IMG/VR virus record: IMGVR_UViG_3300042564_001950
Span: 1 to 39,348 of that record
Origin: a virus
DNA: 39,348 bases
Direction: 5' to 3' (one strand)
Part shown: one piece after another, positions 10,446 through 38,952 of the stretch
Numbering within the stretch: the stretch's first letter is position 1
Layout: every line of letters starts with the position of its first letter
Translations under genes and position numbers: made by a program
The notes under the pieces: model-generated
What the model was told of the DNA's origin: nothing
The model's database searches: none
Seen by the model: only the letters and a program-made list of their open reading frames with translations

Positions 10446-13400
10446 ATGATAAAATATAATCCATTTACGCCGTATTTTACAACAGTCGATAGTATCAACA
10501 TGATTGAGGATGAGACCATTGGTTCTCTGACTCGCGATGATGTAGTTACGCTTTTGAAAGAAATTCAAAAAGCGATGACTCTACAATATTATAATAAGGT
10601 ATATAACTTCGGGCAAACGCCTCCTGGTCCTGGATACAACTTATTAGAAGTAAAGGGTGGTCAACTAACACAAACTGGTGACCAATGGAAATTTACTGTT
10701 GTTCATGCAGATGGTGAGTATGGCGTATATAAACTCGGCACAACGCAACTTATTGATGCTGGAATATTCGGCAGCGATTTAAATAAATGGATCAGCAATA
10801 ATCTGCCAAATATTCCTGTTCCCTCGAAAGGTAACGAGGAATATGAAAGTTGGTATAGTCGATTCGCAAAGTACAACAACGCTAAACAAACAAGAATAAT
10901 TCAAGCGCCTGTTAATGCTCGCAATAATGCATTATACTATATGTTAATTTATATAGTAAATGGAAGCGATCCTCGGTTTAATGTTTCTATTCATCCAGAG
11001 TTAGCATCGCAAAATCCAATTGATATGCATACTGGATTTATTGAACAACCTCAACTACAAGATCTTGCTGCATCAAATCTACTGAAATTTTCATATCAAT
11101 TATTATTAACATCTCGCGCAATAAATGAAAGTGTCGATAAAAAAACTCTTGCTGGTGCCTTGGCATTATCATTGTGCTGGGATATTGATTCTGCGCAAAA
11201 CTATCTGCGAGGAAACATTAAGACAGACACAAGCGGTATATCTGCAAAGTACTGGTTCGATGTTGGGTACAATGCAGTTGCACTACCAACGGAAAAGGTT
11301 GCAACACCTGGACCAATTCCTGGTACTACCAGTGTAGTTAAGGACGAAGAAGTAACACCTCCTCCAGCAGTTGAACCTGAGACACCTGTCGGACAAACTA
11401 CTGTCGAAACTACAAAAACATCTAATTCCCCTGCAGAGGCAAAAGAAGTCCCTAAGAAAATTGTTAAGACAATTAATAATGGAACGATCACATATGAATT
11501 AACTCCTGCTGGAACTATCTCTGCTAAGGTTGTTACTGCCACAAAGAAAACTGCTAGTGTTCTTGGTTCTGGCGGGTTCATCACATCAGTAACAAATCCA
11601 TTCAGTTTTATACAGAATGGTATTGTGACGACATTAGAACAACTTGGCGCAGAAACTTTTAAACTCTCTGTTGTGGATAGAGTCGATAATGGAAGAGTTT
11701 TATTTGAGGGGTCAGATATAAATTCAGCGACTCTCGCTTCCAATGCAGCAACTAAACTCAATCAAATAAAAGCAGCAGAACGTGATTCTCTACATGGTAG
11801 AGGATCTGGTGGAACTTGGTTGCTTGCTATTGAAACTGTAGTGGAATGGTTGCCCCAAACATATCCATCTATTGTTACCGCACTGAAACAGTTAAAAACT
11901 ACTAATGAGAATACTAAAACTGATGATGTTGAAAGCAACAAAACAATTGCTTTCGATGATCCCGCTGACGTAGAAACTCTCATTAAGCAACTTGATGCTA
12001 AAGCGCAAGAAGCAGATAGATCTAGATTAAAATTTACATATGATGCATGCGTATCAGCGAAGAATGAAATTCAATCAAACTTTACTACAGATACGCAAAC
12101 AATTTCTTCCGCAATCTCACAAGCAACACAAACTTCTGCTGACGGGAGTTCTACATCATCTGTTTCAACTGTTCAATCATCTGGTGCGGTAACAACTGTT
12201 ACTACAACAACAGATGCAGACGGAACAGTAACACAAACCAAGACAGTAGAAAAGGTAGACGCACCGTTAAAAGGTTCTTCTCAGAATACTCTAGACAATG
12301 GTATCGAACACAATACAAGATCAGCAGAACCTACTTCTCAAATAAATTCTCCATCTGCTAATGCTCTCCCGACGCACGAAGGCACTAATGTAGAAAAACC
12401 AATTGAGAAAGGTTTCGCAGATCCAAATAAATCATATCCTAAACCAGACTATGTAAATAAACCAGATACTAATACTCTTGCGCTTGGGGTAAATTCTAAA
12501 AATATCAACCCAGACCCAAGAACATCTGCAGGTGATAAATCTTCACAGTCATTGGGTTCTTCACCAGCAGCAAGAAATGCATCAAGAAAACGTGCGGTAA
12601 AGATGGCAGGTCGTTCTGGATCCACGTGGGAACAACCAGCGACTCCGTACGCTGCGAAGTATCCATTTAACAAAGTTTTTGCAGGTGAATCTGGACACGC
12701 ATTAGAAATCGACGACACTCCTGGATTCGAACGATTAAATATTGCCCACAGATCAGGAACCTTTACTGAGACTGGACCTGATGGAACTCAAGTAAATAAA
12801 ATTGTGGGTAATGGGTATTCTATCGTAGAAAAAGATGGTTTCGTTTTAATTGAAGGTAATGCCAACGTTCACATTGCAGGACAATGTAATGTGTTTATTA
12901 TGAATGACACTGCACTAACTATGCACGGTAAAGTCAGTCTTGACATCCATAATGACGTTAATGTCAACATTGGTGGATCGCTTGGTCTTTCAGTACAAGA
13001 TGGTATCTATCTCAGAAACGAAGGTGATATTTCTGTTAAAAATGAAGGTAAGGTTGATGCTGAAATAACAGGAGCAGTCACTACCAAGACTACTGGTAAA
13101 TATAATCTGACAACAAATGCAGGGTTGAACCTGACATCCAAGGTTAATACGCATATCAAATCTGGCGGATCGTTCTTTAATCATTCAACTGGTAACATGA
13201 ACCTATGCACTGATGCAGAAATTCTTGCTAAATCCACTGGTGATATTAACTTGAAAACTGCTGGTATGATCAATCAAGAATCGACTGGTGATATTAACTT
13301 AAAAACTGCTGGTATGATCAATCAAGAATCGACTGGTAATGCTAATATTAAATCTGCTGGAACTATTAATGCACAAAGTGCAGGAGACATAAGTTTGAAC

Positions 13401-22183: not shown

Positions 22184-25100
22184 ATGGCACTGAATTTAAA
22201 TGTATCTCCATACTATGATGACTTTGATGATACTAAAAATTTCAATCGAGTTCTGTTCAGACCTGGATATGCAGTACAGGCACGCGAACTTACGCAACTA
22301 CAGACTCTGTTGCAATCCCAAATTGGTAAATTCGGAAACCATATTTTCAAGAATGGTACAGTCGTTCAAGGTTGTGAATTCAAACTTGATTCACAAAGAG
22401 CATTCATCAAAATTGCAGATGCAGATGTAGATAATGACACCTTATCGACATATATTGGCGATACCGTAACAAACACATCAGGTATGACTGCAGTTATTCT
22501 TGATGTTGCAACAGGCACTGAAGCAGAACTACCAAATCTAAAAACTTTGTATCTTCGTTATACTAGCGGCGATGGTTCTTCTGCGGTTCACTTTTCAGGT
22601 GGAGAAACTCTAACAGTATCTTCCACAGTGTCGGGCAGAAATGGTGATACGTTTGTTGTCGATGACACATTTGATGAAGCAGATCCAATTAACAGTTACT
22701 GGGGTCTCTCTTCTGCTCTAACTGTGGATGATGGTATCGTGTATATTGACGGGAAATTCGTCAATCATACATCACAAACAATCATACTTTCTAAATATGA
22801 TTCAAGACCAACTCTGAAGGTTGGATTCCAGATTGTAGAAAATACTGTTTCTCCTGAAGACGATCAAACCTTATTGGATCCTGCACAAGGATCTTTCAAC
22901 TATGCTGCTCCTGGTGCAGATAGATACCAAGTTTCGACCACACTTGTCGCATATGAACCGACTGACACAATTCCTTCTACGTTTAACCAATTGGTCGATA
23001 TTATCAATGGTGAAATTCAAAGAACTTATACTGCAAATATCTATGGCGAACTCGGCAAAAACATGGCGAGACGCACATATGATGAGTCGGGCAACTATGC
23101 AGTAAGACAATTTCCAGTTCTGATCAAAGAGCATCTTAATGTTGATGGCAATAATGGTTTACGAGAACTAAACACTATTAATCCAGGAAGTGGTGGGAAC
23201 AAAGATCTTCTTGCTATTGGTTTAGAGGCAGGTAAGGTATATGTTCGTGGTTATGAACATGAAACTTTCCAAACAGAATATGTTGTTGTGCCAAAGGGTC
23301 TTACAACAGTTTCGGTGCAAGAAGCACCAATTAGTACTGCATATGGTAACTATATCCTTGTCAAAGAATTCTGCGGATTATGGGATTTAAACACTGGCGA
23401 TAAAGTTAGTCTTCGCAGCGTTGCACAAGGCGCAGTTACTGATGGAACATTCTCTGCTGCTACCGCAGCAGGATCTCAAGTTGGTACTGCTCGCGTAAAA
23501 CAGATCGTATATGAATCTGGAACAGTTGGAACTGCTGCAGCAGAGTATCGTTTATATCTCTATGACATTGCGATGTCAAGTGGCGATTTCAAAGATGTGC
23601 GTGGTATATTTTACAACGATGCGACTGCTGATGGTCATGCCGATGTTGTTTTAGATGGCGGTAATGCAGTTCTCCGAGAAACAAGTTTTAATAAATCTCT
23701 CTACAGAATTCCTGCTCGCGCCACGAAAACAATTGCACCAAATGCAGTCTACGATAACTCGTTTATCTATACTAAAGAATTCGATGGGGAACTCAATGTT
23801 AACGGGCAAGTAACAATCACTCTAAGTGGTGATGAATCTTTCCCGTATGATTCGTTTACTGAAACCATTATTAAAAATAATTTCACACTGGTATTAAAAG
23901 AAGCAGAAACAATAAATTCTGTTGCTAGACCAATTGGTTCTGTCTTAGATATTTCTGGTGCAGTATTTACTAAGAACTCATCAACATCCATAACTATTGA
24001 TCTTGCTGGTGCAGTTTCATCTGCTCCTACGCAAGTCAAACTATATGTGAATGTTCAAGTAGGAAACGCCAATCCTATTCTCAAAGTTCTTCGTGAAGAT
24101 CGTTACGTGATCATCAATACGAATACCCACCCGCTAACTAATGGTGGTGTGTATTCTCTTGGTCTCTCAGACGTCTATCAAATTAAAAATATCTTCATTG
24201 GCGCTGATACTGATACTGATGCTGCAGTAGTTGCTGCTGGCGTAGACATTGCTTCATCGTTTACTCTTGATAATGGTCAACGAGATAACGAGTATCGTAA
24301 TGCTAAGATTACGAAGAAACCTAGTGCACCGTCACTTACGAATAAGAAGTTGGTAATTAAACTTGATTACTTCACACACGATGGTGCTTCTGCAGATGGT
24401 AATTTCTTTGTAGTTGATTCGTATCCAATTGATGATACTGGAGCGACTGCAGGGAAAATCAAAACTCAAGACATTCCAGTTTACAAATCACCTCTCACTG
24501 GTGAAACGTATGACTTGCGCGACACACTAGATTTCCGTGTTCGTTATGCAGATTCTGCAGCAAACTCCGCAGCACTAGGAACTGCGACAACCAACCCGAC
24601 CGAGAGCACGACGTTATCTGCTCCTTCTGTTGGTATTACAAATCCAGTTCCAACCGAACAGTTTATTACTGATCTCGAGTATTATCTTGGAAGAACAGAT
24701 AGACTTATTATCGACTCAGAAGGTGTGTTCAGTACCATATATGGTACGCCATCACTGAATCCTGGTATCCCTGCTGAACCTGAAAATGCGATGTCGTTGG
24801 CAATTATAACAATTCCGCCATATCCATCGCTTGCTCCAAATGTCGCGAAGACTGTTAATCGCCCTGACTATGGTGTAACATTCCGCAGCATTGATAACCG
24901 TCGTTATACTATGCGCGATATTGGTGTTCTCGAACAACGTATCAATCGTCTTGAGTATTATACTTCACTATCTCTGCTCGAGAAAGCAGCAAGCGATTTG
25001 TCTATTCCTGACGGCGCAGGACTCGACAGATTTAAAAACGGTATCCTAGTTGATGCGTTTACTGGGCATAATGTCGGTAACGTTTTCGACAGCGCATATC

Positions 25101-28100
25101 ATATTTCGATTGATCCAGTAAAGAAAGAGATGCGTCCTTTCTTCCATCTAGAAAATATCGATATGGCATTTGACTATGCTAACTCAACGAACGTATATCA
25201 GACAGGCGACTTGCTCACTCTTCCATATGTGAACATTGAACTGACTAAAAATCCATCTGCCTCTAAACCAAGAAATTGTGTTGGAGAGTTACTCTTTAAC
25301 TACATCGGAAATATGGAACTAGATCCGCCAGTCGATAACTGGACGGATACCGCAATCAAACCAGATGTAAGCGTAAACTTCGACGGAAATTATGATGCTT
25401 GGGAAAACATGGCAGATGCGTGGGGAACTCAGTGGGGTGATTGGCAAGATGTCGTAACTGGGAGAAGCACAGTTGGTCAAACTGTGCAAACTGTTGCTGG
25501 TAATGCAACAATAAGTGGTGATACGCTTTTCCAAGAGCAGTCACAAGTTGTTACTACTACAACAGAGCAGCGCCAAACTCGTCAGGGCGTTTCTATAACA
25601 GTAACTCCTGAAACACAATCCCAAAGAATTGGTTCTCGTGTAACGGATACTTCGATTATTCCGTTTATGCGTTCAGTTGTGGTGACGTTCATCGCAAAAA
25701 GACTGAAACCTAATACTCGAGTATTCCCGTTCTTTGATGGTGTTGGTGTCACTCCGCACTGTAGGCCGCTGAATTTTGATCCAGCAACAGACCTTGCACC
25801 TGTCGATCCTGCGGCATATTCATCGTATGTCGATGGTAATTATGGTGATTCCCTGATCACAGATGCTCAAGGTGTTTGTGTGGGACAATTTAGAATTCCG
25901 GCGGCAACATTCCGCACAGGCGATAAGAATTTCCGCCTCTGCGATGATCCATTTAACCGCGAACCATTTGTAACAACTGCGGCGATGCAAACATGGTCAG
26001 CAAATGGATTGTCACAATCTGTCCAAGATACAGTCGTATCAACTCGCGTTGCTAATGTAGCAGTTGGTTCTGTTTCTGATTCGAGATCAGTATTCGAAAC
26101 ATCTACAACAGAAAATAGATTGGCAGATAGAAATGTTGGTGTCGTTCAAACTAATATCAACAACACCTATACTACGATCAACAACACTACGAATATTGAT
26201 AACACAGTAACAAACAACACAACAGTAAACAATACAGAAGTTACTAATGTTTTCAATGAGTATACAACAATTGTTGTAACACCTACACCTGCTCCAACGC
26301 CAGCGCCAACACCAGCGCCAACTCCTGCTCCGACGCCTGCACCGACACCTGCTCCGACGCCAGCACCTACACCTGCTCCGACACCAGCACCTACGCCAGC
26401 TCCGACACCAGCACCTACGCCAGCACCATCTCCGACACCTACGCCTGCACCGACTCCTGCTCCAACACCAGCACCGACTCCTGCTCCGACACCTGCTCCG
26501 ACACCTGCTCCGACGCCAGCACCAACACCAGCACCGACTCCTGCTCCGACACCTGCTCCGACGCCAGCACCAACACCAGCACCGACTCCTGCTCCAGATG
26601 TAATCGTACCCGAAGATACTCCTCAACCAGATCCATGTGCACCAGTAACAATCTGTAGAGAAGGCGGCGGCGAGCGAGTACTCAGAGGCCCTAATGGGTT
26701 TGGGGGGCAGGACAACATAAGACTTGAAACAATAACTGAAGAAGAAGGACCGATCTGCACATCATCAATTCCTGTTTCCTGTCAGAGAGGAGGCAGGAAC
26801 TATCGAGATCCTATCGCGCAGACATTCTATGTTGAAGGTATGCCATTTGGTTGTTATGTCACTAACCTTGACATATATTTCAGAACCAAATCATCTACTG
26901 CGCCAATCACTCTCCAATTACGTGAAGTGGTAAATGGATACCCAGGAAATAAAGTTATTCCATTCGGTGAAGTCACGTTGAATCCTGCTGATATTACAGT
27001 CAGTGAAGATGCAACTGCGGCAACAACTTTTGTGTTCCCGTCGCCAGTATACCTGCAAAACAACACAGAGTACTGTTTTGTTCTTCTTCCTGCAGGCAAT
27101 AATCCAGATTATAATATTTGGGTTTCTGAATTGGGCGCAAACGAACTTGGTACTGAAAATAGAATTTCTGAACAACCACATATTGGTCTGCTATTTACAT
27201 CTGCCAATGATAGATCGTGGACAGCGTGGCAAGCAGAAGATATTAAGTTTACTTTACGTCGCGCAGACTTCGATATTAATACAGTCGGTTTGATTGAAAT
27301 GAAAAATATGGATGTTGACTTCTTGAAGTTTAACTCGTTCACAAATGGAAATTTTGAACCAGGAGATGCAATCCATGGATTCTCGTTTGCAATTACAAAC
27401 GCAGGTTCTGGGTATACGGATGGAGATATACCACTTTCTCTATCAGGAGGTGGTGGTTCTGGTGCGACTGTTCTAGTAACAATTGCAGGCGGAGCAGTAA
27501 CAGATGTTGTGGTTACAAATCCAGGAACAGGATACACGAGTAATCCGTCACTAACTATTTCAAGTGGTAGCGGTTCTGATGCGGCAGTTGCGGTAACTCT
27601 GAATAGAGGATTCGTGAAGCAGTATGATTCTCTGTATAATGTCGGTAAAATCTTAGTAAGGGGTGGTAGATTCACTGCTACTGATATTATTGGGAATGGC
27701 ACGACTTATGCTGAAATTGTAGAAGTCGAAAATAAACAACTTAATGTTGTGGAAACTAATGTCGGGTTTATTGATCATACTCCTGCGGTAGTTTCTTGGT
27801 CTGTAGCACCAACTGCTACTGGTGCGAGTGCTGGTGGAGATTCATATGAAGGGTTTAACTTTGGACAAGAACATGCATTAACATATGAAGCGCAAGTATA
27901 TTCTTACTCAAATGAGCAAGCAAACTTGGGCGGAGATAAATCACTAAGTATAAGAGCAGGTATGGTGACACAAACGTCAACTGTTTCTCCTGTGATCGAT
28001 ACTAGAAAATGTTCAATGATCGCTATTGCCAATGACATTAATGGACCAGATGATATTTCTGGCGAAGATGGAAACAACGGAACTGCAGCATCGAAGTATA

Positions 28101-28483
28101 TTTCCCGTCGTGTTATTCTTGACGATGGTCAAGATGCCGAAGATCTCCGAGTATATCTGAGCAATCAGATTCCTGCTGGTTGTGATGTTAGAGTATATGG
28201 TAGATTCCAGAATGCGACCGACCCTAGTAATTTTGATGACTTAGAATGGATTCAATTAGAACTTGCGCAAACACCTATAGTCAGCACTGGAAAATCTGGT
28301 TTTGTTGAATACCAGTATACTATCCCAACAGCAAATAAAAATGCTGGAGTTCTTGAATATACTGCAGGAAGTGTAACTTATAGTGGTTATAAAAATTTCG
28401 CAGTGAAGGTTATTCCATCATCAACAAATAGTTCTGTAGTTCCATTAGTAAGAGAACTTAGAGCGATTGCGTTGCAGGTGTAA
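22184..28483 (+). CDS. Giant baseplate/fibre-connector structural protein (DUF4815-type, gp10-like position), 2099 aa
   Basis: The N-terminus [54 protein letters not shown] is the hallmark I associate with the DUF4815 structural protein found after gp8 in marine T4-like phages, where T4 has gp9-gp12. Residues about 1-1250 are beta-rich. An Asn/Thr-rich [13 protein letters not shown] stretch leads into a TPAP hinge (residues about 1366-1469). A short Cys-containing segment and a second conserved region follow: [28 protein letters not shown], then [13 protein letters not shown]. Residues about 1734-1805 hold another Gly-Tyr module pair. The role is probably to connect the baseplate rim to fibres (inference). 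An AGAGAG ribosome site precedes the ATG. Confidence 0.75.
26280..26595 (+). repeat. 12-bp TPAP-coding repeat array (about 26 units)
   Basis: Degenerate 12-bp units such as ACTCCTGCTCCG and ACGCCAGCACCT encode about 26 TPAP tetrapeptides, interrupted once by SPTPTPAP. Synonymous variation is high but local blocks repeat, suggesting slippage and block duplication. The product should be an extended, stiff Pro-rich hinge. The antisense strand shows long spurious Arg/Cys/Trp-rich frames here. Confidence 0.9.
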
Positions 28484-28484
28484 T

Positions 28485-28694
28485 ATGACAAGAATTAAAC
28501 TAACTGATACTACAAAGTATGAACGTGATGGTCATTCGAAGGCAATACTTTCGAATGACCTGCCTGCTCTAAAGGCATATAAGTCTCGTAAACAACATAT
28601 GAAGCAAATTGAATCATATGGAGACGATATAAATAATCTTAAGAATGAAATGATTGAGATTAAAAACTTACTAACACAAATACTACAGAAATAA
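28485..28694 (+). CDS. Small hypothetical protein with C-terminal coiled coil, 69 aa
   Basis: It begins MTRIKLTDTTKYERDG and ends in a heptad-like helix (YGDDINNLKNEMIEIKNLLTQILQK). I take the ATG at 28485, one base after the stop of the giant protein, rather than an upstream in-frame codon inside that gene. Size and coiled coil suggest a small virion linker or fibre-associated protein, but I recognise no family. Confidence 0.6.
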   Translation: MTRIKLTDTTKYERDGHSKAILSNDLPALKAYKSRKQHMKQIESYGDDINNLKNEMIEIKNLLTQILQK

Positions 28695-28705
28695 GGATAT
28701 AAAGC

Positions 28706-29188
28706 ATGAGCACACTTACCCTTAGATCTGTAAAGGGGACTCCGCTGACGAATACTGAAGTTGATACTAACTTCAGCAATTTGGATAATGATAAGTATGA
28801 GTCTGGATCAAGTCCTTCCTTTGCAGATTTAGCACTTACTGGGAGTCTAACTAAATCGGTTGCAGGCACAGTTGCAGCAGCGGGAACTACCCAAGGTACT
28901 GCAACTGCGCTGACAAAAACTCTCAACATGATCACAACAGCAACAGCAAATCAGGGTGTAAAACTTCCTACTGCTGCTGCAGGTTTGACCATCAAGGTTA
29001 TTAATACTACAGCAGTTACCATTGTTGTGTATCCAGATACTTCAGATGTTATTGACGGTGGAACTGTCAATGTTGGTGTCAATTTGTCACCATATTCGTC
29101 TGTTGAATTTGTTGCACAAGATGCTGTAGATTGGTATCGCGTAACAAGTTTAATTGTATATGACTCGAGTGGTAACAGGTTAAACTAA
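28706..29188 (+). CDS. Short fibre/structural protein with a phage fibre-anchor N-terminus, 160 aa
   Basis: The N-terminus STLTLRSVKGTPLTNTEVDTNFSNLDNDK is a motif I know from the start of many marine phage tail fibre or structural proteins (GTPLTNTEVD-NF-NL). The rest is a compact Thr/Val/Ala-rich beta domain with VKLPTAAAGLTIKVINTTAVTIVVYPDTSDVI, and it ends AVDWYRVTSLIVYDSSG, similar to small beta-sandwich tips. An AAGGA ribosome site precedes the ATG by about 10 nt. It is the first of three consecutive fibre-like genes. Confidence 0.65.
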   Translation: MSTLTLRSVKGTPLTNTEVDTNFSNLDNDKYESGSSPSFADLALTGSLTKSVAGTVAAAGTTQGTATALTKTLNMITTATANQGVKLPTAAAGLTIKVINTTAVTIVVYPDTSDVIDGGTVNVGVNLSPYSSVEFVAQDAVDWYRVTSLIVYDSSGNRLN

Positions 29189-29189
29189 A

Positions 29190-31889
29190 ATGAATCCTCT
29201 AAAGGTCAAGGCAACAGGGTCCCCAATCACTTCTGCAAACATCAGCGGGTTGCAGACCATGACCGATGCAGAGGTAAAAAATTATATTGCCAATGTTATC
29301 ACAGAAAAATTTGCTGCAGTAACAGATGGTACTGGTACTGCTGAAATAAACATCACGACAAATAACTCAGGCGCAGGAACGTCGATCGGTACGTTTGTCG
29401 ATACGACAAGAAACGAATCTATCGGAACGCATCCTGCTACTGGTGCTACTTCCACTACAACATATTATGTGAAGCAGGTTACTGCTGCGGCGACTGAAAA
29501 CATTACCAACAGACCATTAGCATGGGATTCTCGTCTGGAAGAAATGACAGACGGTGATATTGATGACACGATGGATCTCTGCGTTGAGGCGATGGTCGCA
29601 GAATCGTCGTATACTGCAGGTCAATACAAACTACAAGCAACTGCTCCATCAGGTGGAACTTGGGTCGCAAGATACACACTAACAGATACAGCGCAAGGTG
29701 GAAACACTGTAACATATCTGTGGCAGAAAACAGTCGCATCTTCAGCACCAACAGTAGATTACACACCACTAAGAATATTTAATGGTGGTAACTGCAAGCA
29801 GATGACCGAAGCAGAAATTGAACAGATGCTTCCTGTCTTCAGAAATAGAATTATTGAAACTGGTATCGGAACATATAAAATCCAAACGGATGCGCCCACT
29901 AGTGGCGGCACTTGGATTCAAACAGGCAACACATTCACTGATACTCGTGAACAAGTTTCACCACAAAACTATGTAGGAAACTTCAGCGGCAATTACACTG
30001 GTTTCTTTTCTGGTACCTTTTTAGGTACAGGAAATTTCGAGGGTTCTAGAAACTATCAGGGTAACTATTCAGGAACCTATGGCGGAATTGTAAATTATTC
30101 TGGTTCAAGAACCTATAGTAGATTCTTACCTGATGGTTACATGGGTTTTGCTACTTTCTCAAATAACTTTGCTGGATCTAGAACCTATAGTAGATTCTTA
30201 CCTGATGGTTACATGGGTTTTGCTACTTTCTCAAATAACTTTGCTGGATCCAGAGTCTATTCTGGTAACTATGCTGGTAGTGGAAACTTCACAGGTAACT
30301 ATGAAGGATCAAGAACTTACTCTGGTAATTATCTGGGTAACTTTACAGGTAACTATCTAGGAACATACACTGGAAACTTCTCTGGTTCTAGAACTTACTC
30401 TGGTAATTATCTTGGTAACTTTACAGGTAACTATCTAGGAACATACACTGGAAACTTCTCTGGATCTAGAACTTACTCTGGTAACTACCTAGGATATTTC
30501 ACTGGAACCTATGGTGGAACATATACACAGAACTTCTCTGGATCTAGAGTATATTCCGGCAATTATCTGGGTAGTTTTACAGGTAACTATGAAGGAACAT
30601 ACAGCAGAAACTTCTCTGGTTCTAGAACCTATTCTGGCAACTATGCTCAAGGATTCAGCGGAAACTACTTAGGAACATACACTGGATTTTTCTCTGGTTC
30701 TAGAACTTACTCTGGTAACTACCTTGGTTCTAGAACCTATTCTGGTAACTATGTTGGACCTCCAGGTCCACCATATACTGGATTCTTTACGGCAGAACCA
30801 TATGCCGGAACCTATGCTGGAACTGCGCAATACGCTGGTACACCATACTCAGAAATCAACTACCTTTACGAATTTGGTCCAATAGAAACAACAATTGAGT
30901 GGGTCACGCCGTACTTTTTGGGTCCAGCAAATTACACTGGATACTATACAGCAGGTAACTATGTGGGTGGTGGCGGTGGTGGACCTGGACCTGGAGGAGG
31001 ACCTGGACCAAGATTCATCCCTGCATTTTACAGTAGCAATTTCAGTGCACCAGGAGAAAACTTCGCTGGTTCTAGAGTCTACAGTGGTGCGTATGCTGGT
31101 TCTAGGGTCTACAGTGGTGCTTATGCCCAAGGGTTCAGCGGTAACTACCAAGGAACATACACTGGATTTTTCTCTGGTTCTAGAGTCTATTCTGGCAATT
31201 ATCTAGGAAACTTCAGCGGTAATTATGATGGAACATACAGCAGAAACTTCTCTGGTTCTAGAACCTATTCTGGTACCTACCTAGGATATTTCAGCGGCAA
31301 CTATGATGGCGCATATACGCAGAACTTCTCTGGGTCTAGACAATATTCCGGCAATTACACAGATAATTTCTCTGGTAACTATGAAGGAACATACAGCAGA
31401 AACTTCTCTGGTTCTAGAACCTATTCTGGTAATTACACAGATAATTTCTCTGGTAACTATGAAGGAACATACAGCAGAAACTTCTCTGGATCTAGAGTAT
31501 ATTCTGGCAACTATGAAGGAACTTATGGTGACGGTGGATTTTATGCTGGTTCTAGAACCTATTCTGGCAACTACCTAGGATTCTTCTCTGGTGTCGCTCC
31601 ATATGCTGGTTCTAGACAATATTCTGGCAACTACCTAGGATTCTTCTCTGGTCTTGCGCCATATGCTGGTTCAAGAAACTACCAAGGCGAGTATGCTGGT
31701 GGCGGAACCTTTAGTGGTAACTACAGTGGATCTAGAAATTATGCAGGTATATATAATGGACCAGCAAATTATTCAGGCAATTATTCCAGAGGATTCTCAG
31801 GAAATTATGGCGGAACTTTTTCTGGTGCAACAATACAGGCGTCTAAAGAAACAGTCTCGACTGTTAAATTGTGGTTAAGGACAGCATAA
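29190..31889 (+). CDS. Fibre-like protein with aromatic-x-Gly-x tetrapeptide repeats (899 aa), paralogue A
   Basis: Residues 1-258 are a folded N-terminal region shared with the next gene. It contains MTDAEVKNYIAN, GTAEINITTN, THPATGA and two related GQYKLQATAPSGGTW / GTYKIQTDAPTSGGTW elements. Residues about 260-880 are almost entirely tetrapeptides [Y/F]-x-G-x, e.g. YSGN YLGN FTGN YLGT YTGN FSGS, with a regular RT/RV/RQ dipeptide before the next YSGN, making a 26-residue super-repeat. A Pro/Gly-rich insert (about 519-625) with GGGGGGPGPGGGPGP interrupts it. The C-terminus ends SKETVSTVKLWLRTA, matching paralogue B, so these ends may be trimerisation or capping elements. Proposed role: tail fibre or adhesin, by position after baseplate genes and by repeat architecture. 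I do not recognise a characterised homologue. Confidence 0.7.
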   Translation: MNPLKVKATGSPITSANISGLQTMTDAEVKNYIANVITEKFAAVTDGTGTAEINITTNNSGAGTSIGTFVDTTRNESIGTHPATGATSTTTYYVKQVTAAATENITNRPLAWDSRLEEMTDGDIDDTMDLCVEAMVAESSYTAGQYKLQATAPSGGTWVARYTLTDTAQGGNTVTYLWQKTVASSAPTVDYTPLRIFNGGNCKQMTEAEIEQMLPVFRNRIIETGIGTYKIQTDAPTSGGTWIQTGNTFTDTREQVSPQNYVGNFSGNYTGFFSGTFLGTGNFEGSRNYQGNYSGTYGGIVNYSGSRTYSRFLPDGYMGFATFSNNFAGSRTYSRFLPDGYMGFATFSNNFAGSRVYSGNYAGSGNFTGNYEGSRTYSGNYLGNFTGNYLGTYTGNFSGSRTYSGNYLGNFTGNYLGTYTGNFSGSRTYSGNYLGYFTGTYGGTYTQNFSGSRVYSGNYLGSFTGNYEGTYSRNFSGSRTYSGNYAQGFSGNYLGTYTGFFSGSRTYSGNYLGSRTYSGNYVGPPGPPYTGFFTAEPYAGTYAGTAQYAGTPYSEINYLYEFGPIETTIEWVTPYFLGPANYTGYYTAGNYVGGGGGGPGPGGGPGPRFIPAFYSSNFSAPGENFAGSRVYSGAYAGSRVYSGAYAQGFSGNYQGTYTGFFSGSRVYSGNYLGNFSGNYDGTYSRNFSGSRTYSGTYLGYFSGNYDGAYTQNFSGSRQYSGNYTDNFSGNYEGTYSRNFSGSRTYSGNYTDNFSGNYEGTYSRNFSGSRVYSGNYEGTYGDGGFYAGSRTYSGNYLGFFSGVAPYAGSRQYSGNYLGFFSGLAPYAGSRNYQGEYAGGGTFSGNYSGSRNYAGIYNGPANYSGNYSRGFSGNYGGTFSGATIQASKETVSTVKLWLRTA
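30108..30251 (+). repeat. Tandem 72-bp near-perfect duplication in paralogue A
   Basis: 30108-30179 and 30180-30251 differ at one base (last position, T versus C). Each encodes RTYSRFLPDGYMGFATFSNN plus FAGS, a 24-residue unit distinct from the standard tetrapeptides. Confidence 0.9.
30312..30467 (+). repeat. Tandem 78-bp super-repeat pair in paralogue A (first)
   Basis: 30312-30389 and 30390-30467 are nearly identical. Each encodes RTYSGNYLGNFTGNYLGTYT followed by GNFSGS (26 residues: six tetrads plus Arg-Thr). Confidence 0.9.
31338..31493 (+). repeat. Tandem 78-bp super-repeat pair in paralogue A (second)
   Basis: 31338-31415 and 31416-31493 encode R(Q/T)YSGNYTDNFSGNYEGTYS followed by RNFSGS. 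The period matches the pair at 30312 but the tetrads differ, showing independent expansion of the same 26-residue unit. Confidence 0.9.
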
Positions 31890-31892
31890 AAA

Positions 31893-34148
31893 ATGGTCTT
31901 GAGAAATAAATCTTCGGCGACGCCAGTTTCTGCAGCAAACTGGCAGGGTCTTCAACAGATGTCTGTTGCCGAGGTAAAAAACTATATTGCGCAAACTCTT
32001 ACTGTTTCATTTGGTGCAAACTCAGATGGTACTGGTACTGCTGAAATTAACATTACCACAAACGGCAGCGGGTCTGGGACTACAATCGGAACATTCGCTG
32101 ATACTGATCGCCAAGAAGCAACTGGAACACACCCAGCAACTGGTGCTGTTGACACTGTCACATATACTGCCAAACAGGTTACTGCAGTTGCTACGGAAAG
32201 TATTACCAATCGTCCTCTAAAATATGACGACGGCATCAAAGAACTAACAGATGCTCAGATTGATACTGAGATTCTGGACTATGCTATTAATGCGATGGTC
32301 TCCGAAACAACTTATACTGCGGGCCAGTATAGACTGCAACCTACTGCACCATCAGGCGGCACATGGGTTTCGCGTTATACTTTAACAGATGTTGCCAATG
32401 GCGGCAACACAGTAACATACCTGTGGCAGAAAACTGCTGCGACTACTCTTTCAGACTCCAATCTAAAACCGCTGAAACTTATTGATACCAAAGATGTCAA
32501 AGAAATGTCATCTTCGGAAATCCTACAGATGCTTCCAAATTTCAGAAACAGAATTGTTGATAGTGGCGTAGGATTGTATAAGGTCCAATCATCTGCTCCT
32601 GTTTCTGGTGGAACATGGGTCGAATTGGGTGATCAGTTTGCAGATACTCGCGAACAAGTATCGCCCCAAAACTATGTTGGTAACTTTGCTGGTAACTATG
32701 TAGGCAACTTCTCGGGGTCGAGAAACTTTTCTGCTAACTATGCTGGCACATATTCTGGTTCATTCGCAAACACTTTCAGCGGCGGATATGTAGGTCCAGC
32801 AAACTATGCGGGAACATATGCAGGAAGTTTTGCAAATAACTTTAGTGGTGGATACGTTGGTCCACAGAACTATTCTGGAAATTATGCAGGCAACTTCTCT
32901 GGAAATTACGCAGGTGGATATGTTGGAACTGCTGGGTATTCTGGCAACTATACCAGAAACTTTAGCGGAACATACACTGGATTTTTCTCTGGATCTAGAA
33001 CCTATTCTGGTAACTATGCTGCAAACTTTAGTGGCAACTACCTAGGAACTTATTCTGGTTCCAGAACCTATTCCGGTAATTATCTTGGCAGTTTCAGCGG
33101 CAACTATCTAGGAACATATGCTGGTTCGAGAAACTATGCTGGCAACTATCTGGGCAACTTCTCGGGTAACTATCTAGGATATTACGCTGGTTCGAGAAAC
33201 TATGCTGGCAACTACCAAGGTAACTACCTCGGAACTTACGCGAGCAACTTCTCGGGTAACTATCTCGGCAGTTTCAGCGGTAACTACGCAGGAACTTACG
33301 CGAGCAACTTCACTGGTAACTACCTCGGCAGTTTCAGCGGCAACTATCTAGGATATTACGTTCCATTCTTTGGTGGGTTCGCTGGACCAGCATACGCTGG
33401 CAACTATCTCGGAACTTATAACAGAAACTTCAGTGGAACATACCTAGGAAACTTCACTGGCAACTATCTCGGAACATATTCCAGAAACTTCAGTGGAACA
33501 TACCTAGGAAACTTCAGCGGTAACTATCTCGGAACTTACAGTGGTTCTAGAAATTTTGCTGCTAGTTATGCAGGTAACTACCTAGGAACATATTCGAGAA
33601 ACTTCTCTGGTTCTAGAAACTATGCTGGTAACTACGCAGGAAACTATCTTGGAACATATTCGCAGAACTTCTCTGGTTCTAGAAACTATGCTGGTAACTA
33701 CCAAGGTAACTACCTCGGAACGTATACTGGATACTTCTCTGGTTCGAGAAACTATGCAGCAAACTATGCTGGAAATTTCACAGGTAACTATCTAGGATAC
33801 TTCACAGGAAACTATGTTGGACCTGCAACATATACTGGATTCTACTCAGGAACATATACTGGTTACTTCTCTGGCAATTATGCAGGCACTGCAACGTTTA
33901 CAGGCAACTATACTGGATTCTTCACAGGTAACTACACTGGGTTCTACACAGGCACTGCAACATACACAGGCAACTATACTGGATTCTTCACAGGTAACTA
34001 CACTGGGTTCTATGCTGGTTCTAGAAATTATACTGGCAATTATGCTGGCACTTTCAGTGGAACATACTCAAACACCTTCGTTGGTGCAACAGTGATTGCA
34101 ACTAAAGAAACTGTATCGACGATAAAACTTTGGGTTCGCACAGCATAA
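31893..34148 (+). CDS. Fibre-like protein with aromatic-x-Gly-x tetrapeptide repeats (751 aa), paralogue B
   Basis: A tandem paralogue of the preceding gene. The N-terminal 258 residues align almost throughout (MSVAEVKNYIAQ, GTAEINITTN, THPATGA, GQYRLQPTAPSGGTW, NTVTYLWQKT), and the C-terminal 20 residues (TKETVSTIKLWVRTA) match as well. The repeat region (about residues 259-730) is again [Y/F]-x-G-x tetrads, but with its own composition: more YAGN, YLGT, SRNF and SRNYAGN, few RT dipeptides, and no Pro/Gly insert. A local 66-bp duplication lies near the end (33900 onward). The ends are under more constraint than the repeats, as expected for a fibre whose shaft evolves by unit gain and loss. 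There are 3 nt between the two genes. Confidence 0.7.
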   Translation: MVLRNKSSATPVSAANWQGLQQMSVAEVKNYIAQTLTVSFGANSDGTGTAEINITTNGSGSGTTIGTFADTDRQEATGTHPATGAVDTVTYTAKQVTAVATESITNRPLKYDDGIKELTDAQIDTEILDYAINAMVSETTYTAGQYRLQPTAPSGGTWVSRYTLTDVANGGNTVTYLWQKTAATTLSDSNLKPLKLIDTKDVKEMSSSEILQMLPNFRNRIVDSGVGLYKVQSSAPVSGGTWVELGDQFADTREQVSPQNYVGNFAGNYVGNFSGSRNFSANYAGTYSGSFANTFSGGYVGPANYAGTYAGSFANNFSGGYVGPQNYSGNYAGNFSGNYAGGYVGTAGYSGNYTRNFSGTYTGFFSGSRTYSGNYAANFSGNYLGTYSGSRTYSGNYLGSFSGNYLGTYAGSRNYAGNYLGNFSGNYLGYYAGSRNYAGNYQGNYLGTYASNFSGNYLGSFSGNYAGTYASNFTGNYLGSFSGNYLGYYVPFFGGFAGPAYAGNYLGTYNRNFSGTYLGNFTGNYLGTYSRNFSGTYLGNFSGNYLGTYSGSRNFAASYAGNYLGTYSRNFSGSRNYAGNYAGNYLGTYSQNFSGSRNYAGNYQGNYLGTYTGYFSGSRNYAANYAGNFTGNYLGYFTGNYVGPATYTGFYSGTYTGYFSGNYAGTATFTGNYTGFFTGNYTGFYTGTATYTGNYTGFFTGNYTGFYAGSRNYTGNYAGTFSGTYSNTFVGATVIATKETVSTIKLWVRTA
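33900..34010 (+). repeat. 66-bp tandem duplication in paralogue B
   Basis: A 66-bp unit starting at 33900 (TGNYTGFFTGNYTGFYTGTA plus TY) recurs from 33966 and stays almost identical for about 45 bp before diverging to the YAGSRNY ending. Confidence 0.8.
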
Positions 34149-34218: not shown

Positions 34219-34674
34219 ATGACTACCACACGCACTATTGAAAATCCTTATTGGGCGAACAAAGAAAAACAACATGTTATCGCAGAGTTCGTTTATCCTG
34301 ATACGGGTAAACGAGCAACTGCGTCGATCATGAACGACGGAACTAATCGTGACTTTGATGAATTGATGAAAAAGTTTAGTGTCGAACAGATCGATGCGAA
34401 TACCAAGAAACGGTTTGATGACCGCAACCAACATATCAAACATAACATTGAACGCCAGAAAGTTGATAAGACACGTATGCAGCAAGAGCAACTGTTCGCT
34501 GCTAAACTGGATGCGTTCGAGATCGACTTGATCAAGACCTCGAAGAATCGCGAGTTGAAATCTAAGATTCGTAAAGCAAAGAACATTATGGAAGTTACTG
34601 CTTATACCGTTATCCTTCTGCAGTTAGAAGAAGCAAATACTGCTATTGTGAAAGAAACAGTTGATGCAGAATAA
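34219..34674 (+). CDS. Conserved hypothetical protein, 151 aa
   Basis: It begins MTTTRTIENPYWANKEKQHVIAEFVYPDTGKRATA, a short beta-like head, and continues as a highly charged helical segment (KKRFDDRNQHIKHNIERQKVDKTRMQQEQ) likely to be coiled coil. I recall similar IENPYW-starting proteins next to fibre genes in marine T4-like phages, without known function. It has a good GGAG ribosome site and its own promoter-like region. Its 3' end overlaps the start of the next gene by 11 nt, so the two are probably coupled. Confidence 0.6.
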   Translation: MTTTRTIENPYWANKEKQHVIAEFVYPDTGKRATASIMNDGTNRDFDELMKKFSVEQIDANTKKRFDDRNQHIKHNIERQKVDKTRMQQEQLFAAKLDAFEIDLIKTSKNRELKSKIRKAKNIMEVTAYTVILLQLEEANTAIVKETVDAE

Positions 34675-35359
34675 TGGGTTTCTTTATGTCGCGTCAGTAA
34701 GAAAAGGTTACTATAGAGCAGCGAGAAATTCTGCTATGTCTCTGCGTGACTACTATCCTGACGCAAAAATAACATTCTTCACACATGAGGAATGGGTTCA
34801 ACCAGATGATTATGAAATTTTTGATACTGTAATTACTGAGAACGTACCACGAGACAAGCGAGCAAAACTGTGGGCGCTTGATCAGACACCATATGATTTA
34901 ACTGTTTACATGGATTGTGATACAGAAGTTGAACATGAAGACATATCTAAAATCTTTGATCAGATTCCCGAAGATGTAGATGTGCTATTCACTGCCAACA
35001 GACCGTATAACGCAAAAATCACCAAACTGTCAGAAACTGAAGAGATGACTGAGCATTGTGGATTGTTTATTTACAGGAACAACGAACAAACATTGAAACT
35101 TATGCGTGCTTGGTATGATGAGTATTGGGAACAGAATAAACCAGGATGGGATCGCAAGCATTATCCCGAAGAAGCACTGCAGTGGGATACGTTTACGATG
35201 TGGAGATTACTAAATCTATTTGACTTTGGCGTCAAAACTGGCAGATTTCCTGCCCCTGATGCTAGATGGAACTTTGTTTCCGGATACACAGAAGATGAAT
35301 TACAGGGGCAACCAGTGGTAATTTATCACTACACCATTCCGCAATCATTTCTAAGTTAA
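34664..35359 (+). CDS. GT-A-type glycosyltransferase-like protein, 231 aa
   Basis: The N-terminus GFLYVASVRKGYYRAARNSAMSLRDYYPDAKITFFTHEEW is the Rossmann-like nucleotide-sugar binding start of GT-A enzymes. YMDCDTEVE supplies the D84-x-D86 metal/nucleotide-sugar motif. HCGLFIYRNNEQTLKLMRAWYDEYW and EALQWDTFTMW match the acceptor-side helices of this class (an invariant-like gly-side segment and an aspartate-rich loop). ATG at 34664 overlaps the preceding gene; a TTG one codon upstream is the only alternative. The donor and acceptor are unknown. It is not closely similar in its N-terminus to the KWGxKY paralogues on the opposite strand. Confidence 0.65.
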   Translation: MQNNGFLYVASVRKGYYRAARNSAMSLRDYYPDAKITFFTHEEWVQPDDYEIFDTVITENVPRDKRAKLWALDQTPYDLTVYMDCDTEVEHEDISKIFDQIPEDVDVLFTANRPYNAKITKLSETEEMTEHCGLFIYRNNEQTLKLMRAWYDEYWEQNKPGWDRKHYPEEALQWDTFTMWRLLNLFDFGVKTGRFPAPDARWNFVSGYTEDELQGQPVVIYHYTIPQSFLS

Positions 35360-35370
35360 ACAGGACACGC

Positions 35371-36048
35371 ATGCTACAATTTACAAATTCAGTTTCTAAA
35401 GAACTAAGTGACATTCTAGAACCATTTACTAAATGGTTTTTTGAGCAAAATGATCAACATCTTGTTCTTGGTCCACAAGAAATGCAGGAAAAACGTCGAG
35501 GTGGATTGAATGTTGACACTGCTACTGACGAGAAATATCTAAACCACATTGTCGGTAAGGGCGAAAACCACGTTGGGTTTCCTGATGTTGCGTGGTGCAC
35601 TGACATGTCAACAGCACATGGTCAACCATGGTTCCCTTCTGAATATGGCAGAAGGCAACAAGAAACTAATAAAGAGTTGATCAGTTATCTTGGTGCGAGA
35701 AACAATGCGGTGTTTACTTACTATCCAGAAAATGGTTTCATGGGATGGCATACTAACTGGAATGCATCAGGATATAATATTCTAATTACATATAACTCTG
35801 AAGAAAATGGTGGATACTTCCGCTACCTAGATCCAGTAACGAAAGAAATTGTTACTATGATTGATCCAAAAGGATGGTCATGTAAGGTTGGGCATTTTGG
35901 CGATCGCAGTGATCCGAATAAAATTGTGTACCACTGTTGTGGTAACTCTGCTAAGAGATTGACTTTAGGATATGTTGTACCGCATCTTGAAATTTGGCGA
36001 TCGATGATTGAAGATATTAGTGGTGAGGATGCTTCTCATTTTGCATGA
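35371..36048 (+). CDS. 2OG-Fe(II) oxygenase-like protein with variant iron motif, 225 aa
   Basis: The core reads GWHTNWNASGYNILITYN, then GGYFRYLDP, DPKGWSCKVGHFGD, and VYHCCGNSAKRLTLGYVV. The double-stranded beta-helix dioxygenase pattern is H-x-D...H...R: here H127-T-N129, H188 and R196 (eight residues after the His, the expected 2-oxoglutarate-binding position). Asn replaces the usual iron-binding Asp, so either another carboxylate serves or the chemistry is altered. Such oxygenases hydroxylate proteins, nucleotides or small molecules; the substrate is unknown. Placement between a glycosyltransferase gene and a convergent methyltransferase/glycosyltransferase operon suggests a modification pathway. 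Confidence 0.5.
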   Translation: MLQFTNSVSKELSDILEPFTKWFFEQNDQHLVLGPQEMQEKRRGGLNVDTATDEKYLNHIVGKGENHVGFPDVAWCTDMSTAHGQPWFPSEYGRRQQETNKELISYLGARNNAVFTYYPENGFMGWHTNWNASGYNILITYNSEENGGYFRYLDPVTKEIVTMIDPKGWSCKVGHFGDRSDPNKIVYHCCGNSAKRLTLGYVVPHLEIWRSMIEDISGEDASHFA

Positions 36049-36058: not shown

Positions 36059-36715
36059 CTATTTCTTCCCAATTACCATGAAACGTTCGAAGTTTACCTT
36101 GCCGTCCCAAGACCAATATGATTGTTCGATCTGCCCCTGATAGGAAACATCGGTAACTCCAACATTTTCTATATGGTCTTCGATTGTAGGGACGCAATTA
36201 ATACCATACATTTCTCTAAAAACATTTGACGATTGGCAAGCAAATACACAGTTCTTATTTGCAGATGTCATTTTCTTAAGAGGATACATTGTTTCACTAC
36301 AGAGAGAAATTATCACATCAGTATCCAACGCATTAATATCATGATATGCAAAAGGAACATCCCAATTGATGTGATTTAACTCCACACCGTTATTGGAATA
36401 ATACTTATTGAATACTTTAGAGAGTTCTAATGCGTCTTTGTCGATATCGATTAAATTAATCTTCTTGACGTTTAGATTTTCACACAACAATGGAACAAGC
36501 GGGAACCCCAACCAAGAATTTAAAACCGTAATATTTAATTGCTTGGTTACGTCTACGCATTTCTGTAATTCTTCTACCAACCAAATAGCAGCATCCATAG
36601 TATTTGGATTCAAAGACTTACGAAAGTCTTCGTGTTTAAACGGCATTTCGTGATTGATCTTTTCTAGACCCTCACCCCAATAACGATAGTTGTTTAAGTA
36701 ATTATAATTTAACAT
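36059..36715 (-). CDS. SAM-dependent methyltransferase-like protein, about 218 aa
   Basis: A Rossmann-type core is visible: ITVLNSWLGFPLVPLLCEN (a variant of the glycine-rich SAM loop), INLIDIDKDALELSKVFNKYY (acidic residue after beta2 and following helix), VELNHINWDVPFAYHDI, then DVIISLCSETMYPLKKM, as in class I methyltransferases. The GxGxG loop is degenerate (NSWLGF). I prefer the ATG at 36715; a second in-frame ATG at 36739 would overlap the upstream gene by 38 nt. It is the last gene of the minus-strand glycosyltransferase operon, overlapping its neighbour. It is convergent with the oxygenase gene (stops 10 nt apart) and no clear terminator is visible between them. Confidence 0.55.
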   Translation of the reverse strand: MLNYNYLNNYRYWGEGLEKINHEMPFKHEDFRKSLNPNTMDAAIWLVEELQKCVDVTKQLNITVLNSWLGFPLVPLLCENLNVKKINLIDIDKDALELSKVFNKYYSNNGVELNHINWDVPFAYHDINALDTDVIISLCSETMYPLKKMTSANKNCVFACQSSNVFREMYGINCVPTIEDHIENVGVTDVSYQGQIEQSYWSWDGKVNFERFMVIGKK

Positions 36716-37385
36716 CTTGTGGTCTTTCCATTGAATCATATAAACAAATAAGTGGTTCTTCGCGCAGGACTTGTTCTCTTACATCTGTCGGCCACATATA
36801 TCCGTAGTTGTAACTGTATACCCAACCGTCTGGGAAATGGTCAATTTTCAGAAGACGTTCTCTTTGATGCCCGAATAGATTGTCGAGACCGCGATAATAG
36901 AAGAACATTTGATCTGCATAATCTGTGACGAACTTAGTGATTTTGTCGATATCTAACCTATCATTCCACCTCAACACGCTGGAATTTAAGTCTGTATATT
37001 TGTGTGGAATATCTTGCGTGTCTTGTTTCATCTTCTTGATGTTATGCCAATGAGTGCGAACAAAAGTTAAACCGTCTTCCGGATCATGATCAACGATGCA
37101 ATCGATATTCTTTTGAATACCTATATCAAGATCTAGAAAAAGTTTTTCTCCTTTTTGCTTAACAACATTTCGGTCAAAAAGATATAACTTATTCCACCAT
37201 TTTTCGTAGTAGTTATCCTCGGGTAATGGAATGACATTAATTTCTGGAAATAACCCATCAGAATGTTCGGTCAAACAATAAAAATCAAATTCTGTTGTAA
37301 TGTGTTGTTTGCATTGTTCGAGAATTTTATTGACATCTTCCGAATCATATTTGAATCCCCACTTTACTGTGTATATACTAATCAT
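36702..37385 (-). CDS. Glycosyltransferase-like protein (KWGxKY family), paralogue 1
   Basis: 227 aa from the ATG that overlaps the upstream stop as TAATG (37385). It carries the shared N-terminal YTVKWGFKYDSEDVNKI, a FYCLTEHSDGL strand, and a LFLDLDIGI motif with D85 and D87 as the GT-A DxD. YTDLNSSVLRW, YYRGLDNLFGHQRE and GWVYSYNYG parallel the C-terminal landmarks of its neighbours. It is shorter than paralogue 2. It is part of a run of coupled genes whose 5' end lies outside the window. Confidence 0.65.
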   Translation of the reverse strand: MISIYTVKWGFKYDSEDVNKILEQCKQHITTEFDFYCLTEHSDGLFPEINVIPLPEDNYYEKWWNKLYLFDRNVVKQKGEKLFLDLDIGIQKNIDCIVDHDPEDGLTFVRTHWHNIKKMKQDTQDIPHKYTDLNSSVLRWNDRLDIDKITKFVTDYADQMFFYYRGLDNLFGHQRERLLKIDHFPDGWVYSYNYGYMWPTDVREQVLREEPLICLYDSMERPQDVKL

Positions 37386-38203
37386 TAAACATTCCAATGT
37401 TCTAAAAGATCAGGATCGACCAACGATTCCTGTTTCACTTTGCCTCTGCTATTGTCTTTGAACGGGAGTAAATCCACATTAAAGACGCATACAATACAGT
37501 CTTTTCTATATATAGCGACCTCTAGATCTCCTGAATCCCAATCACGACCTCTGTTGTATGAGTAAGCAAATGTATTTGGGAAGTGCTTCCATAGAGGAGT
37601 ATTACTAAAGTCGCCCCAACGCCAACTGTGATAGTTATCTGTTCCATCGGTGAATGTAAACCAAATACGTTCTTGGTGTTCTAACACGTCCTGCCAAATA
37701 CATTCTGTCTGATCATCCGACCACACCATACAACTGCCATTGGTATATGCACCATGTGACAACTTAAAGTTACGAGACTTCATGGGTCTAGGGTCTTGCC
37801 ACCACGAACGTAACTTGGTAGGATTCTCTAGGTCATAAGTGATGATCGGCGACAAATCATTTTGAATGATAACATCAAGGTCGAAAAAGACAAATCTTCC
37901 AGTGGGTTTATCGTTTGCGAAGTTATGTGTATTGAAGATGAACGTCTTTGGTCTGTCCCAACAACGTGCCATGCCGTATTTGAAATCCTCAGATCCGAAC
38001 CAGTATTTTGGGTGGATGTCGGGAATGTCTGGGAAGTCAATGACTTTAATCTCATTATCAAATCCTTCACTGTTATCAGTATAGCAATAGAAGTGGAACT
38101 CAAAATTATCAGGGGTGTGCTTCTTTGCCATTCGATAAAGTCGGTTAACAAACTCGGCGGAATACTTTGTTCCCCATTTAGAGCAGACATAATTAACTCT
38201 CAT
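37385..38203 (-). CDS. Glycosyltransferase-like protein (KWGxKY family), paralogue 2
   Basis: 272 aa from the ATG at 38203, which overlaps the upstream TGA as ATGA. Landmarks: VNYVCSKWGTKYSAEFVNRLY, FHFYCYTDNSEGF, FVFFDLDVII with D108-x-D110, YTNGSCMVWSDDQTECIW, and a TDNYHSWRWGDF...AYSYNRG end. An upstream in-frame ATG (38209) exists but the coupled start is favoured. The family appears to be a GT-A-fold sugar transferase; sequence alone does not show the sugar or acceptor. Confidence 0.65.
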   Translation of the reverse strand: MRVNYVCSKWGTKYSAEFVNRLYRMAKKHTPDNFEFHFYCYTDNSEGFDNEIKVIDFPDIPDIHPKYWFGSEDFKYGMARCWDRPKTFIFNTHNFANDKPTGRFVFFDLDVIIQNDLSPIITYDLENPTKLRSWWQDPRPMKSRNFKLSHGAYTNGSCMVWSDDQTECIWQDVLEHQERIWFTFTDGTDNYHSWRWGDFSNTPLWKHFPNTFAYSYNRGRDWDSGDLEVAIYRKDCIVCVFNVDLLPFKDNSRGKVKQESLVDPDLLEHWNV

Positions 38204-38952
38204 TTCCACAACCTAACAATATTTTCATCTAAACAATCAGATAAGTCTATCTGTTCTTTTGCTGATGGATGTGGTATGTTGTCTGTATTGAACAAACAAA
38301 TCTTAGCATCTGGTCTAAATTTAAATCGTTCTGCATCATCGGGATGATGTTTACCACGGTTCCAAGAATATATCCATCCACCAGGAATATCCTTCCAGAA
38401 ATCTCTCTGCCTCCAGTAATGGTAATTGTCGCTTCCCTTGAAGAAAGTTTTAAATACCGACTCTGAATGTTCCAACACATCGTTGTAAATATGTTCGCAT
38501 GCAGCACCAGACCAAAGCATCATGCTGGAATTATAAAATGTTCCTCGAGTTTCGATGAAAAGTCTATCATGTTTCTGCGACTGTGGTTGCCATCGACACT
38601 GGATGATACGGGGTTTTTGTGCGAGTAACTCAACGTCAGTAATATCTTCTTGAATTACTACATCTAAATCAAAGAAACACCAGTTACCAACGTATCCTAA
38701 CCAGTTATGTGAATTGAATACTAAAAACTTTGCACGATCGAAACAGAAAGTTTCTTTTCCGAACCAATGTTTGGGATGTAAAATCCCATCATCAGGAATT
38801 GGTGCAGTATCACACTCAACACCTTCTGCGTCATCGGTATAACAAGTAAACGTAAACTCATTTTCGAAGTTTCGTTTGACCATGTTGTAAAGATTGTTTA
38901 CGTATTTCGCGGGATACTTATTCCCCCACTTAATGCATACGAAGTTCATCAT
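38200..38952 (-). CDS. Glycosyltransferase-like protein (KWGxKY family), paralogue 3
   Basis: 250 aa. It shares MNFVCIKWGNKYPAKYVNNLY, FTCYTDDAEGV, WCFFDLDVVI with D95-x-D97, FYNSSMMLWSGAACEHIY, GSDNYHYWRQRDFW and GWIYSWNRGKH with paralogue 2, so the two are recent-looking duplicates. The start is ATG at 38952 (or the adjacent ATG at 38949); it overlaps the 3' end of the upstream partial gene by 23 nt, with a GGAG about 13 nt before. Confidence 0.65.
   Translation of the reverse strand: MMNFVCIKWGNKYPAKYVNNLYNMVKRNFENEFTFTCYTDDAEGVECDTAPIPDDGILHPKHWFGKETFCFDRAKFLVFNSHNWLGYVGNWCFFDLDVVIQEDITDVELLAQKPRIIQCRWQPQSQKHDRLFIETRGTFYNSSMMLWSGAACEHIYNDVLEHSESVFKTFFKGSDNYHYWRQRDFWKDIPGGWIYSWNRGKHHPDDAERFKFRPDAKICLFNTDNIPHPSAKEQIDLSDCLDENIVRLWK

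Follow-up and report, generated by a model that had tools for sequence, protein, structure and literature searches.

We describe two adjacent genes of an aquatic phage that encode paralogous fibre proteins, A and B, whose long shafts are built of aromatic-x-Gly-x tetrapeptides, and behind which genes for a glycosyltransferase-like and an oxygenase-like protein are constantly found. The window, that is the whole stretch of DNA analysed, comprises the 39,348 nucleotides of IMG/VR record IMGVR_UViG_3300042564_001950, and its source is a T4-like, Kyanoviridae-type aquatic myophage. That A and B are virion fibres containing an ordered beta rod is likely, their location in the virion being judged from genomic place. 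The wider explanation, in which they are ordered, probably trimeric beta-structured tail-fibre shafts with linked enzymes, is the best that we can offer for the whole, and we regard it as evenly balanced between right and wrong. Members of the family occur widely in aquatic viral metagenomes but have no entry in the family libraries.

The window codes for T4-like tail tube, hub, tube cap, gp53, gp5, gp6 and gp8-type proteins as well as VrlC. Genes A and B, separated by 3 bases, lie close downstream of VrlC and behind the baseplate wedge genes (gp8-like); it is the VrlC side of this placement that is observed, the window stopping short of any neck gene. The host-recognition cluster of pelagimyophages and cyanomyophages, which has been described as non-syntenic and hypervariable, places fibre genes and glycosyltransferases behind VrlC (PMC7029224), and this genomic place supports the view, first reached by a sequence-only reading of the window, that A and B are two tandem, fibre-like paralogues. 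The features are as follows.

22184–28483, plus strand: VrlC-type baseplate protein (DUF4815), 2099 aa, upstream of the fibre cluster; Pfam PF16075, E 8e-52; relatives annotated VrlC
28467–28694, plus strand: 75-aa small virion structural protein; phrog_473 ‘virion structural protein’, E 6e-14
28706–29188, plus strand: 160-aa candidate small fibre-like or decoration-like protein (putative role); same position in 23 relatives
29190–31889, plus strand: fibre protein A, 899 aa
29190–29954, plus strand: A N-terminal domain, 255 aa, tandem sub-domains, 60% identity to the B N-domain
29955–31817, plus strand: A tetrad-repeat shaft with 26-residue super-repeats
30831–31025, plus strand: A central non-tetrad Gly/Pro-rich segment, residues 548–612, which varies among relatives
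31818–31886, plus strand: A conserved C-terminal tail, FSGATIQASKETVSTVKLWLRTA
31893–34148, plus strand: fibre protein B, 751 aa
31893–32666, plus strand: B N-terminal domain
32667–34076, plus strand: B unbroken tetrad shaft, 470 aa
34077–34145, plus strand: B conserved C-terminal tail, FVGATVIATKETVSTIKLWVRTA
34219–34674, plus strand: p151, charged, probably helical, directly behind the fibre; likewise placed in 12 of the 14 lineages
34661–35359, plus strand: glycosyltransferase-like protein (GT) with a GT-A-type DxD (YMDCDTEV); follows the fibre in all 14 lineages
35371–36048, plus strand: oxygenase-like protein (OG), named by motif: invariant W-H-x-N-x-N-A, distal H and R
36059–36739, minus strand: lineage-specific ORF, no family label
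36702–37397, minus strand: glycosyltransferase, phrog_1962, lineage-specific
37385–38209 and 38200–38952, minus strand: paralogues of the 36702–37397 glycosyltransferase, lineage-specific

The 160-aa protein was without a family match in Pfam, PHROG and NCBIfam searches, and in the literature DUF4815 was found in only two papers, with a single mention in each. The minus-strand genes from 36059 to 38952 probably lie outside the core cassette; the three tandem paralogous glycosyltransferase-like genes among them (36702–38952) have a mutual identity of 28–38%, and a fragment of similar appearance lies at the contig edge (38930–39346). Tandem DNA repeats are also seen elsewhere in the window: VrlC contains about 100 residues of (T-P-A-P)n, a Pro-rich linker encoded by 12-bp and 48-bp units (26280–26595), the gp5-like hub gene (10446–14459) has an internal 48-bp repeat at 13231–13360, and a minus-strand ORF with a weak tail-fibre match (243–2807; phrog_3201) has 33-bp and 9-bp repeats at 1078–1240. 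The major capsid protein gp23 of a relative (L009) is 67% identical to that of Methylophilales phage Melnitz and 65% to that of Pelagibacter phage HTVC008M. A cyanobacterial host is not supported, since psbA was not found in 13 records.

Both fibre proteins begin with a conserved, non-repeat domain of 255 residues (60% identical between A and B) and end in a conserved 23-residue tail with the consensus ...GATxxAxKETVSTxKLWxRTA. When family profiles are compared, sub-domains 2 and 3 of the N-terminal domain match each other (hhalign E 3e-13), and a domain of such tandem sub-domains suggests a docking role. The sequence-only reading had tetrads throughout both shafts; they are indeed found in both, and run without a gap in B, but in A they are interrupted by the non-tetrad residues 548–612, a candidate recognition or flexible segment.

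A search with a fibre query returned 72 loci of the tetrad fibre family among viral contigs, at 28–100% identity; the longest members reach 3769 aa with similar N-domains and C-tails. A and B are without a match in Pfam, PHROGs, NCBIfam and PDB sequences; the PDB sequence matches that did appear (an ARID-domain protein and others), with A, the repeat blocks or the N-domain profile as queries, were rejected as low-complexity artefacts. Among 50,697 phage records the only full-length strong match is Phage C48C1 (OQ984149, Kyanoviridae), while Synechococcus phage S-RIM2 matches along a short repeat stretch only. The single match in a bacterial genome, a contig with tetrad fibre genes assigned to a Sphingobacteriales MAG (L083), is probably a mis-binned phage contig. 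We found no literature on an aromatic-glycine tetrad repeat, and likewise none on Phage C48C1. In the 49-kb regions of Melnitz and HTVC008M that were searched, the aromatic tetrad fibre is absent.

Behind the fibre, GT and OG follow in all 14 divergent lineages, joined by p151 in 12, and the fibre-GT-OG order is retained down to about 30% identity; genes farther out from the cassette are common to close relatives only. Where a locus had at least 3.5 kb of upstream sequence, fibre and GT were both present in 141 of 141 cases, a set that was gathered with OG and GT queries, includes loci found by the fibre, often overlaps or repeats one contig, and reduces to 48 distinct OG proteins or 14 clusters at 65% identity. 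Searching the same 50,697 phage records with p151 and GT gave C48C1 only, and with OG gave C48C1 and one weak record; in C48C1 the fibre, p151, GT and OG matches all adjoin one another. GT is present in single copy in seven of eight records. OG has additional copies elsewhere in four of eight, so it is not exclusive to the fibre; for instance, C48C1 (L210) has extra members at 8268–8921 and 30131–30805, one beside head and tail tube genes and the other beside NifU, near an endolysin.

We call GT glycosyltransferase-like as a putative assignment. The residues D85 and D87 of its DxD are invariant, and profile searches hit Glycos_transf_2 in four of seven members (best E 0.0025) and also, weakly, Nucleotid_trans, all of them below the cut-off, as is the Glycos_transf_2 score of the window member. 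OG has invariant H127, N129 (Asn replacing Asp), H188 and R196, the distal H and R being eight apart, and lacks a classical HxD; it had no match in Pfam, PHROG or PDB or among the HTVC008M proteins annotated as 2OG oxygenases, and the putative label of 2OG-oxygenase-like is taken from its motif only. p151 is a candidate fibre assembly factor, a function suggested by its place.

Whether the two enzymes serve the fibre can be argued in two ways. They might act instead on host surface sugars, in the exclusion of co-infecting phages, as has been proposed for glycosyltransferases of the host-recognition cluster (PMC7029224), and owe their place behind the fibre to nothing more than operon position; the three further tandem glycosyltransferase-like genes of the window and the copies of OG elsewhere would be in keeping with this. 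We consider it a real possibility that falls somewhat short of even, as the cluster is described as hypervariable, yet the fibre-GT-OG order is kept in every lineage when the genes outside it are not. That the enzymes act on the fibre is our tentative preference, and we would not rate it as probable.

The tetrad repeat claimed by the sequence-only reading is borne out by counts. From residue 256 onwards there are 103 [YF]-x-G motifs in A and 96 in B, compared with 29.3 ± 4.3 (maximum 43) and 24.5 ± 3.9 (maximum 36) in 1000 composition-preserving shuffles. The spacing between successive motifs is even in 100 of 102 cases in A, 91 of 95 in B and 272 of 277 in a relative (L034), which has 172 consecutive aromatics at exact four-residue spacing. 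Such even spacing would align aromatics and glycines along one side of an extended strand and leave the other side to the polar x residues. The position after Gly is Asn or Asp in 45–68% of tetrads. Collagen-like G-x-y triplets are absent from A and B, whose motifs are spaced by four or other even numbers, in agreement with the original view that the repeat is not collagen-like. An N-x-S/T sequon code (N-[YF]-[ST]) in the fibre was rejected, as the pattern is depleted (odds ratios 0.58, 0.33 and 0.72).

Above the tetrad there is less constancy. The 26-residue super-repeat (six tetrads plus a dipeptide) noted earlier for A is seen in the DNA as 78-bp arrays of about five copies each at 30312–30718 and 31134–31510, but it is local to parts of A and not constant across the family; repeats in the B gene are mainly of 60 and 66 bp (20 and 22 aa). 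Motif steps of 4, 6, 8 and 12 are intermixed. In the wider family YxRx and FxGx tetrads often alternate (899 neighbouring pairs YR-FG and 554 FG-YR), which gives an octad, F-x-G-N-Y-x-R-N. These data bear on whether each chain could coil alone as a beta-solenoid with its aromatics stacked in ladders, like the pentapeptide- and hexapeptide-repeat proteins with their other codes. A strict short period in which a small residue always takes the same position would suit such a fold, as would an even register, and the local super-repeats of 26 residues in A and of 20 and 22 in B could be its rungs. No rung is common to the family, however: the autocorrelation of tetrads is highest at lag 3 for A and at lag 5 for B, while the wider family shows peaks at lags 2, 3, 5 and 7, and 2-residue insertions are frequent. 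The absence of a single rung length speaks against a single-chain solenoid, which we think unlikely, and a constant super-repeat as solenoid rung was rejected as it varies within the family.

The repeats are under purifying selection. In a comparison of B between the window and a relative (L004), dS in the repeats is 0.60 and dN 0.05 (dN/dS 0.083), close to the dN/dS of 0.053 in the N-domain, and over 90 tetrads the changes at positions 1 to 4 number 1, 11, 5 and 11, so that the aromatic changes least; these values, like the indel counts, come from related and hence non-independent sequences. Among 23 B proteins, indels in the repeat region are of even length in 587 and of odd length in 62 of 649 distinct contexts, compared with 42 even and 176 odd in the N-domain (218, tallied per pair). 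Parity was uninformative for A (1550 even, 1526 odd), where the alignment is messy. The length of B proteins varies between 486 and 771 aa while both of their ends stay conserved, and gain or loss in even-length blocks would make the rod length tunable with the register intact. Together the regularity and the selection data fit an ordered rod with a selected register and a tuned length, and not low-complexity drift.

The B gene also has a local peculiarity when the window is compared with another relative (L003), as dS is 0.34 in the N-domain and 0.06 in the repeats, which points to a mosaic origin, the repeat block having probably been exchanged by recombination. The idea that A and B match in length, as parts of one joint fibre might, was rejected (Spearman 0.40, p 0.09; zero without the three longest pairs).

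The same data weigh on a disordered thread that would bind weakly through Tyr and Arg, like the Gly/Ser/Tyr-rich prion-like domains. The composition of the repeats invites the comparison, being mostly Gly, Tyr, Ser, Asn, Thr, Phe and Arg, with hardly any Lys and no Cys. Exact spacing is unnecessary in a sticker-spacer thread; here the register is almost always even, up to 172 tetrads pass without a slip, the aromatics are the least changed residues and B indels keep an even length. We therefore find this explanation quite improbable, and the earlier suggestion of a stretchable thread or low-complexity sticky shaft does not survive, the even-step register being kept by selection. A secreted, curli-like aggregating fibre that binds host cells together and is no part of the virion is very improbable, for though curli secretion genes occur in pelagimyophages and the idea of ‘sibling capture’ has been put forward (PMC7029224), no N-terminal secretion signal is evident by eye in these proteins, whose genes sit within a baseplate-fibre block and whose N-domain of tandem sub-domains suggests docking.

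The nearest structural likeness is found in the cell-puncturing needle of T4, the triple-stranded beta-helix at the C-terminus of gp5 (gp5C), whose repeating octads carry Gly at position a, Asn/Asp at b, Val at g and a polar residue at h (PMC3004832). The [YF]-x-G-[N/D] tetrad resembles its g-h-a-b corner, V-polar-G-N/D (PMC3004832), in having a buried hydrophobic residue two before Gly, Asn/Asp after Gly, an even period and a place in the phage baseplate region. The period is however 4 with Tyr/Phe in A and B rather than 8 with Val, their repeats are hundreds of residues long and the gene neighbours differ. A and B thus depart from the octad rule, keeping Gly and Asn/Asp and replacing Val by Tyr/Phe, while the alternation in distant members is octad-like. 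PDB sequence searches gave no match of A or B to gp5 or any solved fibre, so that a solved repeat fold with a strong match, which would have told against a novel fibre, was not among the results. The earlier statement that the repeat follows no familiar beta-helix code was too strong in view of the gp5C corner (PMC3004832).

The period of gp12 is about 6 as opposed to 4. The ‘structural protein’ SWTG_00067 of S-RIM2, a Kyanoviridae virion-type gene beside neck genes, has [V/L]-T-G-N tetrads, and a synthetic VTGN block taken from it matches gp5C weakly (E 0.013), but its tetrads are aliphatic and form a short stretch in a large protein with another N-terminus and without the cassette behind. 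The one full-length homologue, CDS0201–CDS0204 of Phage C48C1, shares the N-domain, the tetrads, the C-tail and the three downstream genes; its fibre differs in its 3348 aa, its mixture of YxRx and FxGx tetrads and its non-repeat inserts, and is annotated as hypothetical.

On the preferred reading of an ordered fibre with linked enzymes, the N-domain would attach A and B to the baseplate periphery, and the [Y/F]-x-G-x region would fold as a long ordered beta-rod, with aromatics and glycines alternating along its buried side and the polar x positions (Ser, Thr, Asn) pointing outwards. Given the resemblance of the tetrad to the gp5C corner at half the period, our best guess is a homotrimeric triple-stranded beta-helix in which [YF]-x-G-[N/D] would serve as a corner or half-corner; this is the most likely form of the rod, though as a claim of its own it falls a little below an even chance. 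The C-tail would cap the rod, the length of which would change by gain or loss of even-length blocks. B would be a plain rod, and the variable central segment of A may touch the host. p151 may aid folding, and the GT-like and OG-like proteins may modify the fibre or, as the rival explanation has it, the host surface.

A bolder possibility, which we consider doubtful, is that the tetrad represents a structural code new for phage rods, specifying an intertwined beta-fibre whose core consists of aromatics and glycines, and that this fibre has hydroxylase-like and glycosyltransferase-like enzymes of its own for its maturation. The logic of maturation by a hydroxylase and a glycosyltransferase is known from collagen and would here apply to a beta-structured viral fibre. 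Among the present observations, the constant association of fibre, GT and OG is new.

The family, which Pfam, PHROGs and NCBIfam lack, is defined by a sequence code that is simple and can be tested, and by a gene cassette that stays constant. Should the fold prove new, it would offer a rule for designing long protein rods of tunable length. Should the fibre be a substrate of the linked enzymes, the phage would be modifying the apparatus of its own adhesion, which is unusual, and knowledge of this would aid the annotation of host-recognition clusters in abundant uncultured phages.
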